The position numbers were made by a program, and so were the translations under genes. Positions 48,396 through 53,428 of a DNA stretch of 64,000 nucleotides are shown here, one piece after another. The stretch comes from Kaistella sp. (GTDB taxonomy: Bacteria > Bacteroidota > Bacteroidia > Flavobacteriales > Weeksellaceae), in assembly GCA_019459085.1 (NCBI GenBank), contig JAIBEW010000007.1, forward strand, positions 1-64,000. Reading direction: 5' to 3'. Position 1 is the first letter of the stretch. The number at the start of each line of letters is the position of its first letter. The notes beneath the pieces were generated by a model. It did not search any database and was not told the origin of the DNA. It saw only the letters and a program-made list of their open reading frames with translations.

Positions 48396-50468
48396 TTAAT
48401 TTGAAAACAGCGCAGAAATTTTTTGGGAAAGTTTCTCGGCATTCGGAAGCATTTCTTTTTCTAGAACCAGATTAATCGGAACTGCCGGTAAATTCAGGGA
48501 ACCAACTGCCTCAACAGCTGCATCCAGATACGCGAAACAGTTTTTTGAAATCCGGTGTGCAAACGCTTCGGCAAAAGAGTTCTGCAGCTGCTCTTCAGTT
48601 AGAACGATGCATTTCCCGTGGAGTTTTACCCTTTCGTAAACGAGTTTTTCATCTAAAGGAATCAGCGTACGCAAATCGATGATTTCAATTCTTCCTTCAA
48701 AGTTTTTTGCCGCTTCTTTCGCCCAGAAAACGCCCATTCCGTAAGTAACGATGACCAAAGTCCGGCCTTTTTCCATTTCCGTTTCGCTGGCTTTCACGAT
48801 GATATTTCCTTTTCCGAAAGGCAGGATATAATCTTCGTCCGGTTCTATCGTTTTTGCGTCTTCAGTTCCGGGAACTTTGCTCCAGTATAAACCTTTGTGT
48901 TCCAACATGACCACAGGATTCGGGTCATAATAGGCCGCTTTCAGCAAACCTTTAAAATCGGCCGCATTGCTCGGATACGCAATCTTGATCCCCTTGATAT
49001 TGGCCAAAATACTTTCCACACTACCGCTGTGGTAAGGTCCGCCGCCGCCGTAAGCGCCGATCGGAACACGGATGATATTGCTCACGGGGAATTTTCCCTG
49101 AGAAAGATAACATGATTTTGAAATTTCGGTAATTAACTGGTTGATTCCTGGATAAATATAATCGGCAAACTGAACTTCCACAATAGGTTTGAGTCCTACA
49201 GCACTCATCCCAACGGTGGAACCAATAATATACGCTTCCTGAATCGGGGTGTTGAAGACTCTTTTCTTTCCGAACTTCTGTCCTAAAGTCACGGTCTCAC
49301 GGAACACGCCGCCAATTCTTTCGCCAACATCCTGGCCGTACAACAAGGCTTCCGGATGTTTCCACATGATTTCCTGAATTGCATGAATGGCCGCATCGAC
49401 CATCACAATTTTTTCGGCGCCTTCAGGTTCTCGTACGCCTTTTTCTTTAGTAACGTGAGTAGGAGCGAAGACGTGGTTTTCTACGGTTTCCGGTTTCGGA
49501 TCTTCAGCATTGATGGCTTTTTCGAAGGCTTCTTCTGCCTCAATCCGGGCTTTTTTGGTGATCTGTTTTAAAAGTTCTTCATCAACACCGTCTTCCAGTA
49601 AATAATTTCTTAGAATATTTCCGGGATCTTTCGCACGGTGTTTTACCAGATCATCTTCATCCCGGTAAAATTCTCTGCGCACGCCGGAAGTGTGATGACC
49701 AATCAGAACAGTTTTCGCGCACACCAAAAGCGGTTTTCTTTCGGTTCTTACAAATTCGACGGCTTTTTTCATCGCGTCGTAACTTTCTACAAAATCGGTT
49801 CCGTCTACGCGCATTCTGCTGAGTCCGACAAATCCGGCTGCAAAATCGTACGCGTCGGAGGTTCTTGCTTCTTCTTTCGTTACCGAAATTCCCCATTCAT
49901 TGTCCTGAATAAGGAAAATAATAGGCAGTTGGTGCAGCGCCGCAAACTGAAAAGCTTCTGAAACTTCACCTTCGGTCACCGAATTGTCACCGAAACTACA
50001 CACGACCACGGGATTTTTCTCGTAAGTCTTTAAGTTGAATTCCTGAATATATTTAATTCCCTGCGCGACACCCGTAGTCGGAATCGCCTGCATTCCTGTT
50101 GCGGAACTCTGATGAATGATTTTCGGAAGATTTTCTTCAAGACTCGAAGGATGGGAATAATACGAACGGCCGCCGGAAAAAGGATCATCGGCTTTTGCCA
50201 GAAGCTGCAGCATCAAACGGTACGGTTCAAAACCCATCCCCAGAAGCAGACTTTCGTCGCGGTAATACGGCGAAACCCAGTCTTCTTTTGTCAGCTGATA
50301 AGCGGTGGCCAGCTGAATGGCTTCGTGACCGCGCGAAGTGCTGTGCACATATTTGGTGATGCCTCTGTTTTCCTCATAAATATCAGCCATGGCTTTTGCC
50401 AGCATCATGTGATTGAAAGCTTTCAATAAAACGTCCTGCGAAACTTTTTCCTGTGTCGTGATTTCCAT
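48396..50468 (-). CDS. Fused alpha/beta E1 of a branched-chain 2-oxo acid (or pyruvate) dehydrogenase
   Basis: This thiamine-diphosphate enzyme decarboxylates a 2-oxo acid and passes the acyl group to an E2 lipoyl domain. At 690 aa it contains the alpha subunit (residues 1-350) joined to the beta subunit. The alpha part has VVVCSFGDNSVTEGEVSEAF, the TPP motif, near residue 160, with IFLIQDNEWGISVTKEEART following. The beta part has KIVMVDAAIHAIQEIMWKHP, LYGQDVGERIGGVFRETV and PYHSGSVESILANIKGIKIA. Fused E1 is common in Bacteroidota. Branched-chain acids are inferred from family; E2/E3 are elsewhere. The ATG at 50468 is next to a -7 box; the track start includes it and is rejected. Confidence 0.87.
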   Translation of the reverse strand: MEITTQEKVSQDVLLKAFNHMMLAKAMADIYEENRGITKYVHSTSRGHEAIQLATAYQLTKEDWVSPYYRDESLLLGMGFEPYRLMLQLLAKADDPFSGGRSYYSHPSSLEENLPKIIHQSSATGMQAIPTTGVAQGIKYIQEFNLKTYEKNPVVVCSFGDNSVTEGEVSEAFQFAALHQLPIIFLIQDNEWGISVTKEEARTSDAYDFAAGFVGLSRMRVDGTDFVESYDAMKKAVEFVRTERKPLLVCAKTVLIGHHTSGVRREFYRDEDDLVKHRAKDPGNILRNYLLEDGVDEELLKQITKKARIEAEEAFEKAINAEDPKPETVENHVFAPTHVTKEKGVREPEGAEKIVMVDAAIHAIQEIMWKHPEALLYGQDVGERIGGVFRETVTLGQKFGKKRVFNTPIQEAYIIGSTVGMSAVGLKPIVEVQFADYIYPGINQLITEISKSCYLSQGKFPVSNIIRVPIGAYGGGGPYHSGSVESILANIKGIKIAYPSNAADFKGLLKAAYYDPNPVVMLEHKGLYWSKVPGTEDAKTIEPDEDYILPFGKGNIIVKASETEMEKGRTLVIVTYGMGVFWAKEAAKNFEGRIEIIDLRTLIPLDEKLVYERVKLHGKCIVLTEEQLQNSFAEAFAHRISKNCFAYLDAAVEAVGSLNLPAVPINLVLEKEMLPNAEKLSQKISALFSN

Positions 50469-50474
50469 AGAGAG

Positions 50475-50482
50475 CAAAGATA
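50475..50482 (-). promoter_or_regulatory. -7 box for the E1 gene
   Basis: The minus strand reads TATCTTTG, an exact TAnnTTTG, ending 6 nt before the ATG at 50468. It decides the start. Confidence 0.5.
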
Positions 50483-50573
50483 AAAATTTTAAAGGATTTT
50501 GGAAAATGGATGACGACAGAAAATCTTATATTTAGTGTTGAAGAGGGTCTGCTTTTAAGTGCTTGAAGCTGCG

Positions 50574-50787
50574 TTGTAATGAATGTAAAATGTATTTGAT
50601 TACAAAGCAACTTCCGGGACCTTACCTGCAGTTGTATTTTATTTAAAACGACCTGCTTTGTAATGAATGTAAAATGTATTTGATTGCAAAGCAACTTCCG
50701 GGACCTTACCTGCAATTGCATTTTATTTAAAACGGCTTGTTTTGTAATGAATGTAAAGTGTATTTGATTACAAAGCAACTTCCGGGG
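50574..50787. repeat. 84-bp tandem repeat, about 2.5 copies
   Basis: TTGTAATGAATGTAAAATGT starts copies at 50574 and 50658, and a third (AAAG for AAAA) at 50742, giving an exact 84-nt period. Copies share CAAAGCAACTTCCGGGAC and CTTACCTGCA blocks, with a few substitutions. Each copy has an inverted repeat (TTTGTAAT ... ATTACAAA, one mismatch in copy 2) spanning 34 nt. No protein is supported: the 145-aa ORF in the track only reads through the repeats. It occupies the gap between the E1 gene promoter and the split accessory gene. Confidence 0.85.
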
Positions 50788-52182: not shown

Positions 52183-52797
52183 TCATTTGTGGGAATTATT
52201 CTCACCGTTTTTCCATAATTGAGTTGCGGCAATGATGATCCAGAGAAAATAGAACAGAAAAATAAGGCGCTGGCCGACCGACGGAATATGAGGGAATATC
52301 ATGGGCCAAAATCCAAAAATAATCGTAGCCCAAACACAGATTCCGGCAGGACGTATGATTGCTTTCCATTTTCCGTTTTTTCTCCAGATTTTTGGATAGG
52401 TGAAGGCGGCAACAAGAAAACTCAGGAAACTCCCAAAACTTCCGGTCATGTGAAGCAGAGCCGTTGTCGACTGTCGGTTTTCCATATCAGCCGGAAAAAT
52501 CCCGGAAAAACTCATCAACAGTCCGCTTAAAATAAGACTGTACAGAGGAGTTTTTGAATCCGAGGCGTCGGACGAGTATTTATAGAGACCGAATGCAAAA
52601 CCAGCGATCAGTACACCCGGAATTACATATCCGAAAATATTCCAGTACCAGAGATGAGGTGCGTCTACCGAGCCCAGTTCACTAATGGCTTTGTACCTGA
52701 AGCTGTATTCGGGACGCATGTTGGCCATGATAAAATATGTGGTTGCAAGTAAAAATGCAGAAGCATACCCAGAAAGTGCAAATCCTTTATTGCTCAT
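52183..52797 (-). CDS. DUF998 membrane protein
   Basis: This 204-aa inner-membrane protein has about six hydrophobic helices. The N-terminal MSNKGFALSGYASAFLLATT, with SFRYKAISELGSVDAPHLWY near residue 33, matches DUF998, whose function is unknown. The loop GIFPADMENRQSTTALLHMT near residue 118 is another family feature. A -7 box precedes it, and a perfect TTGAT-N4-ATCAA palindrome lies about 40 nt further upstream, at the end of the adjacent Crp/Fnr regulator gene. The location suggests that regulator activates this gene. Confidence 0.8.
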   Translation of the reverse strand: MSNKGFALSGYASAFLLATTYFIMANMRPEYSFRYKAISELGSVDAPHLWYWNIFGYVIPGVLIAGFAFGLYKYSSDASDSKTPLYSLILSGLLMSFSGIFPADMENRQSTTALLHMTGSFGSFLSFLVAAFTYPKIWRKNGKWKAIIRPAGICVWATIIFGFWPMIFPHIPSVGQRLIFLFYFLWIIIAATQLWKNGENNSHK

Positions 52798-52814
52798 TTT
52801 TTAAAATTTAGGTC

Positions 52815-52822
52815 CAAAGATA
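52815..52822 (-). promoter_or_regulatory. -7 box for the DUF998 gene
   Basis: The minus strand reads TATCTTTG, an exact TAnnTTTG, 17 nt before the ATG at 52797. There is no -33 TTG at the usual spacing, which is the pattern expected of an activator-dependent promoter. Confidence 0.5.
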
Positions 52823-52844
52823 TCCTGTGCAGGTACAATTTAAA

Positions 52845-52860
52845 TTTGATGTACATCAAA
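52845..52860. promoter_or_regulatory. Perfect FNR/CRP-type box TTTGATGTACATCAAA
   Basis: This is a 16-bp perfect palindrome containing TTGAT-N4-ATCAA, the FNR-type consensus. It overlaps the 3' end of the Crp/Fnr gene. Its centre is about 41 nt upstream of the transcription start predicted from the -7 box of the DUF998 gene, an activator position. Confidence 0.65.
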
Positions 52861-53428
52861 AAGCGTTTTCCGCTCTCACCCGGCTCAGCGTTTCCTGGGT
52901 CATCCCGAGATGGGAGGCAAGCATTCCCAACGGAACCCGCAGCAGTTTGTTAGGCGCTTTATTCTGAAAAAACAGATACCTTTCTTTGGCGCTGTGAAAC
53001 TGCATGGAAATAATTCTTTCGCTCTGTTCCATAAAATAATGGGAAATGAGGATGCGGCCGAATCTTTCCATCTCCGGAAAATCGGTGAAGCACTGTTCAA
53101 GGTCATTGATGTTTATTGCGATGAGTTCGGAATCTTCCAGAGCCTGAATATAAAAATGATCCGGCACATTTTTCATAAAACTGTAAACCGAGGTGATCCA
53201 TTCGTTTTCTGCACAGAAATTATCGGTAATTTCTTTCTCTCCTTTTTCATAAAAAATCCGTATTAATCCTTTTCCGATAAAGAAAGTATGATCACAAACG
53301 TGATGCGGCTGATGAAGGAAATCACCTTTTTTTACCGTTTTTATTTCGGAAATAAGACCGATTCTGCTTCTTAAATCCTCAGAAACCGGGATGAATTTTT
53401 CGATGTGTTGTATTAACTGCTGAATCAT
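52856..53428 (-). CDS. Crp/Fnr family transcriptional regulator
   Basis: This is a 190-aa regulator. Residues about 10-115 form the cyclic-nucleotide-binding-like beta roll (VKKGDFLHQPHHVCDHTFFI and GKGLIRIFYEKGEKEI). A dimerisation helix follows, with ISHYFMEQSERIISMQFHSA. The winged helix ends in LGMLASHLGMTQETLSRVRA; its E-T-L-S-R matches the E-x-x-S-R recognition-helix pattern of FNR that reads TTGAT. There is no N-terminal Cys cluster, so it is not an Fe-S oxygen sensor. It is short for the class because the wing after the recognition helix is clipped. The ligand is unknown. Next gene is DUF998, with the box between. Confidence 0.85.
   Translation of the reverse strand: MIQQLIQHIEKFIPVSEDLRSRIGLISEIKTVKKGDFLHQPHHVCDHTFFIGKGLIRIFYEKGEKEITDNFCAENEWITSVYSFMKNVPDHFYIQALEDSELIAININDLEQCFTDFPEMERFGRILISHYFMEQSERIISMQFHSAKERYLFFQNKAPNKLLRVPLGMLASHLGMTQETLSRVRAENAF

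Follow-up and report, generated by a model that had tools for sequence, protein, structure and literature searches.

We propose that a short Crp/Fnr regulator and the DUF998 membrane-protein gene behind it very probably constitute a dedicated two-gene switch, a local, single-target cassette of the class II activator type that is not autoregulated through its own box. The two genes lie on the minus strand of the 64,000-nucleotide stretch of DNA that we analysed (the window), separated by a gap of 58 bp in the ORF map, with the palindrome TTTGATGTACATCAAA situated between them. The features of the locus are as follows.

52856–53428, minus strand: Crp/Fnr regulator of 190 aa (ORF and PF00027 match)
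52845–52860, no strand assigned: proposed operator, the perfect 16-nt palindrome TTTGATGTACATCAAA (sequence, shuffles, conservation and paralogue survey)
52815–52822, minus strand: predicted -7 element TATCTTTG of the DUF998 promoter (fit to TAnnTTTG and spacing)
52183–52797, minus strand: DUF998 membrane protein of 204 aa, the proposed only target (PF06197 match)

The palindrome contains TTGAT-N4-ATCAA, as the original prediction had read it, and the TGA stop codon of the regulator (52856–52858, minus strand) is the TGA of its first half-site. Thirty nucleotides downstream of the centre of TTTGATGTACATCAAA begins TATCTTTG, a match to TAnnTTTG, the Bacteroidota -7 element; by the convention for that element, the box centre falls at about -41 relative to the predicted DUF998 start. 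The same prediction had put the centre about 41 nt from this start and had seen no -33 element. Both points held up, the 29–30-nt distance from box to TAnnTTTG being conserved (see below) and the place of the -33 element in the DUF998 promoter being taken by the downstream half-site of TTTGATGTACATCAAA. No second box was found upstream of the regulator gene, and autoregulation through this sequence is therefore not expected.

The regulator carries the N-terminal cNMP-binding fold, matching PF00027 at 9e-9 (35.6 bits, cut-off 27.5). Its HTH_Crp_2 score is sub-threshold (14.6 bits, cut-off 27), and the helix-turn-helix was recognized in the AlphaFold model (pLDDT 93.5), where the helices are modelled with confidence and align with those of the best solved relative, 3dn7 (3.7e-29); Foldseek matched the model to 3dn7, FNR and CRP. 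The modelled chain stops at the recognition helix, with a C-terminus of the Q-E-T-L-S-R type (...MTQETLSRVRAENAF*), so that the protein has no wing. Cysteines occur only at positions 45, 72 and 113, and the regulator has no group of them near its N-terminus to hold a 4Fe-4S centre, in agreement with the original prediction. At the expected phosphate-binding place our alignments have D-H-F and no Arg conserved among relatives, with the equivalence to CRP judged by eye; by our reading, the canonical cAMP phosphate-binding Arg-Ser/Thr is not apparent. With the FNR cysteine cluster absent and this Arg-Ser/Thr not apparent, the signal is probably a different small molecule or a stress. The description of the system as FNR-like fits its reading of DNA but not its ancestry or sensing, as the regulator belongs to a wingless Bacteroidota group of ~190-aa proteins.

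The downstream gene belongs to DUF998, with a PF06197 match of 78.6 bits (6e-22) that exceeds the Pfam gathering cut-off of 30. Because a fold search of the PDB returned no match at E ≤ 1e-3 despite a good model (pLDDT 85.8), we assign it no function. Relatives of DUF998 are rare, being found in 2 of 36 genomes of the genus, 2 of 323 of the family and 4 of 395 in a sample of the class, and the regulator was found in 2 of 366 genomes of the phylum. Three genomes hold orthologues of both genes: that of the window, G005 from the same genus (73% identity to the window for the regulator and 70% for DUF998) and G683 from another family (71% and 49%). In all three, both the box and TAnnTTTG are perfect, 30 nt apart in the window and 29 nt apart in both G005 (TTTGATAAACATCAAA and TAAATTTG) and G683 (TTTTGATCTGTATCAAAA and TACTTTTG), and the remaining sequence of the gap between the genes is poorly conserved. 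Small as a three-genome comparison is, we regard this conservation of box and spacing as decisive for the reality of the observation. In G683 (L049, 2387–3588) the pair is directly followed by a second Crp/Fnr gene, with a P-E-S helix, and then by a membrane-protein gene that we take to resemble DUF4386.

On either side of the pair, the neighbouring genes in G005 are not those of the window, and the pair therefore looks mobile or repeatedly lost. DUF998 had no match in plasmids, and neither gene had one in viral contigs. Recent arrival as foreign DNA was rejected on composition, although the pair is patchy in distribution, as the local GC of 0.40–0.44 is ordinary for the coding sequence around the locus. 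Elsewhere in the window, a tandem array with an 84-bp unit (2.6 copies, 93% matches, 50569–50786) lies between a dehydrogenase gene (48396–50477) and small hypothetical ORFs.

We surveyed 249 Bacteroidota Crp/Fnr genes, a first set of 166 and a test set of 83 fetched later, scoring TTGA[TC]N4[AG]TCAA from -12 to +60 of the regulator stop codon. In the first set the box lay 3' of 37 of the 79 genes with an x-E-T helix and 1 of the 87 others (p = 9e-14; 0.035 expected by shuffling), frequencies that come from a survey seeded with mostly box-bearing subfamily sequences and are not phylum-wide estimates. The test set gave the same picture, with the box at 19/34 x-E-T genes versus 1/49 others (p = 1e-8), as did clustering at 50% identity, which left a 3' box in 21 of 33 x-E-T-[L/F]-S-R clusters and in 1 of 48 clusters with other helices (p = 5e-10). 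In the window, an E-x-x-S-R helix of the FNR kind stands beside TTGAT-N4-ATCAA, and the proposal that the E-T-L-S-R helix matches TTGAT is borne out in the form of this association across paralogues. Among the x-E-T genes with a 3' box, the stop codon forms the core of a half-site in 13 of 56, and a box ahead of the regulator's own start was seen in 0 of the 56. Local control, though frequent, does not extend to every regulator of this type: 12 of the 33 x-E-T clusters have no local box. These include a group of Q-E-T orthologues with 30 members, which may act on distant targets; this box-free group (L020–L047, same genus) mostly adjoins a gene whose product begins MQDIFNAKEAQ....

Other helices are accompanied by other palindromes at the equivalent place: Q/P-V-S by TTATC-N4-GATAA, D-T-S by TTGYC-N4-GRCAA, P-N-A and x-Q-S by TACC-N4-GGTA, and H/A-E-F by TTGAAC-N2-GTTCAA; GTGAC accompanies R-E-T helices in 5 of 7 cases. 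We regard this putative helix-to-box code as a strong lead and not yet as a complete table, because the groups outside x-E-T are small and several are sets of orthologues. In the window's own genome we found two related paralogues, with P-E-S and D-T-S helices. A second cassette on another contig of that genome (L192; G000 C15, 68676–71030) has a D-T-S regulator, the palindrome CTTGTC-TTAT-GACAAG and, 29 nt away, TAACTTTG; the product of the gene that follows looks DinB-like. The original prediction was correct about the layout of regulator, box and target; it overlooked that the box includes the stop codon and that this layout, far from unique, recurs in many paralogues.

Wherever a perfect TAnnTTTG lay within 60 nt of the box centre, in either survey set, it lay at 29 or 30 nt, with 14 loci at 29 nt and 2 at 30 nt in the first set, for which shuffling predicts 0.15 loci, and 3 and 2, respectively, in the second. 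Position-wise frequencies revealed an A-N-N-T-T-T-G signal at the same place even where the match is imperfect. When palindromes of any sequence were counted, 41 of 79 loci had one 29 or 30 nt upstream of TAnnTTTG, compared with 0 to 4 at other distances, and copies of TAnnTTTG elsewhere in the same loci gave no such peak. The distance found in the window is thus that of class II geometry, the DUF998 start being a predicted one.

Together, these observations suggest a mechanism in which the dimer of this short Bacteroidota Crp/Fnr protein would read TTGAT half-sites through its Q-E-T-L-S-R recognition helix and bind TTTGATGTACATCAAA across its own stop codon. Centred there some 41 bp ahead of the predicted start of DUF998, it would fill the place of the missing -33 element, touch RNA polymerase and recruit it to the -7 element TATCTTTG, thereby activating, in class II fashion, what is predicted to be its one target promoter in the genome. 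The rigid spacing of 29 or 30 nt would follow from contact between a class II dimer and polymerase and is not explained by repression. Since no terminator was found in a scan between the two genes, read-through of regulator transcription into DUF998 is also possible.

Binding of DNA alone would leave the sign of the effect undecided, and Crp/Fnr proteins can repress. We nevertheless think it unlikely that the regulator represses DUF998 from TTTGATGTACATCAAA until released by a ligand: the palindrome sits at the position of a class II activator, upstream of the -7 element rather than over it, it takes the place of the -33 element, and the rigid distance suits contact with polymerase rather than blocking. 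Even less probable is a reading of TTTGATGTACATCAAA in which a different, global FNR-type regulator uses it and the Crp/Fnr gene next to it is there by coincidence. The classical FNR sequence is indeed TTGATN4ATCAA, and the genome does contain Crp/Fnr paralogues, but the two related ones have P-E-S and D-T-S helices, and across the survey the sequence of the box changes with the recognition helix encoded beside it (GTGAC for RET, TTATC for xVS, TTGYC for DTS, TACC for xQS or NA). DUF998 genes that lack an adjacent x-E-T regulator also lack the box, which likewise led us to reject the idea that the box is tied to DUF998 and not to the regulator. A case from Belliella kenyensis (L017, 2341–3618) makes the same point: there DUF998 stands behind a P-Q-S Crp/Fnr protein that is unrelated to the window regulator (23% identity), and because the palindrome, TTACCATATGGTAA, is a different one, the box is not a property of DUF998. 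In that genome another regulator, built on a like design, is paired with the same target.

A global regulator would further be expected to have other sites, and the pattern TTGA-N6-TCAA-N20-25-TAnnTTTG occurs in the genome once, at this locus. The circuit thus appears self-contained, as originally predicted, and a wide regulon is unsupported, the sole site with box and -7 element being the DUF998 promoter. The search for further boxes that had been suggested alongside that prediction did return bare copies of TTGATN4ATCAA, 11 in 2.57 Mb, and a TAnnTTTG at promoter distance only here. Eleven is about the number predicted by scaled shuffles; nine of the other ten sites are inside coding sequence and one is 3' of a gene, and the window itself has 1 against a shuffled mean of 0.24. 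We rejected the bare count as evidence, as it equals chance. This chance-level count, and the position of a palindrome at the 3' end of a gene, are what one would see if TTTGATGTACATCAAA terminated transcription of the regulator, or were a repeat that arose by chance and regulates nothing, yet we find that explanation scarcely credible. Shuffled sequences fold as well as RNA from the TTTGATGTACATCAAA region (z 0.11), and the palindrome is not followed by a T-run, which, with the negative terminator scan, led us to reject TTTGATGTACATCAAA as a terminator; conservation, the fixed distance to TAnnTTTG and the dependence on the helix would all be left unexplained.

The dedicated activator cassette that we favour has clear parallels in E. 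coli, where FNR, with an E-x-x-S-R helix, uses TTGAT-N4-ATCAA sites at class II (-41.5) promoters, and CRP, with an R-E-x-x-x-R helix, recognizes a GTGA half-site. Like FNR, the window system combines an E-x-x-S-R helix with TTGAT, a box centre near -41 and activator geometry, and the modelled fold is similar, with a Foldseek match to A. fischeri FNR. It differs in lacking Fe-S cysteines and a wing after the recognition helix, in its predicted single local target instead of a regulon, in using a Bacteroidota -7 element and in the place of its box, where the regulator gene itself ends. GTGAC goes with the R-E-T paralogues much as GTGA goes with the R-E of CRP, so the contrast between R-E-T/GTGAC and x-E-T/TTGAT parallels the known one between CRP and FNR; the window protein departs from CRP in its Q-E-T helix and TTGAT box, and in showing no evident counterpart of the canonical Arg that binds the cAMP phosphate. 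The nearest solved relative, 3dn7 from Cytophaga hutchinsonii, is a Crp/Fnr protein of the same short architecture with a different helix, T-P-E-Y-L-S-E-I-R, for which we know of no target or ligand.

Regulators with adjacent targets have been used to read a helix-to-box code in the LacI family (Camas et al. 2010, PMC2978694). Our approach also derives a code from regulators with local targets; it concerns another family, and here the proteins are predicted activators with a 3' box at a fixed distance from a -7 element. The study of Matsui et al. 2013 (doi 10.1093/gbe/evt004), as cited in PMC8510549, likewise appears to be a computational survey of target motifs in the CRP/FNR superfamily. In the open-licence literature, where the slash spelling may be missed, we found no paper linking DUF998 to a Crp/Fnr protein and none describing the layout of regulator, 3' box and target; the searchable literature yielded almost nothing on the targets or signals of Bacteroidota Crp/Fnr proteins.

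Judged from sequence comparison, the window circuit exemplifies a cassette design that is widespread. Candidate Crp/Fnr genes number from several to a few dozen per genome in the phylum, and we think it likely that single-target Crp/Fnr cassettes form a large class in Bacteroidota, in which only the downstream neighbour is activated, through a 3' palindrome 29–30 nt upstream of TAnnTTTG, and the box sequence varies with the helix residues. The candidate code for this class, a strong lead, would pair xETLSR with TTGAY, RETLSR with GTGAC, x-V-S with TTATC, DTS with TTGYC, x-Q-S or N-A with TACC, and x-E-F with TTGAAC or TTAAAC. Among the genes following x-E-T regulators are those for DUF998, YiaAB, a small multidrug resistance (SMR) pump, SRPBCC/polyketide-cyclase proteins, glyoxalase and a metallo-beta-lactamase fold, all of which recur as partners, as well as an alpha/beta hydrolase, an amidase and a fatty-acid hydroxylase; the set may point to inducible responses to small molecules or membrane stress. 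The layout tells where to look, around the stop codon of the regulator for the box and in the gene that follows for the target, so that each cassette is a ready-made one-promoter test and the helix-to-box pairs are a natural dataset for the recognition rules of the CRP/FNR family. If the design is as we propose, a readable code would lead to signals for many orphan paralogues and to functions for orphan targets such as DUF998.
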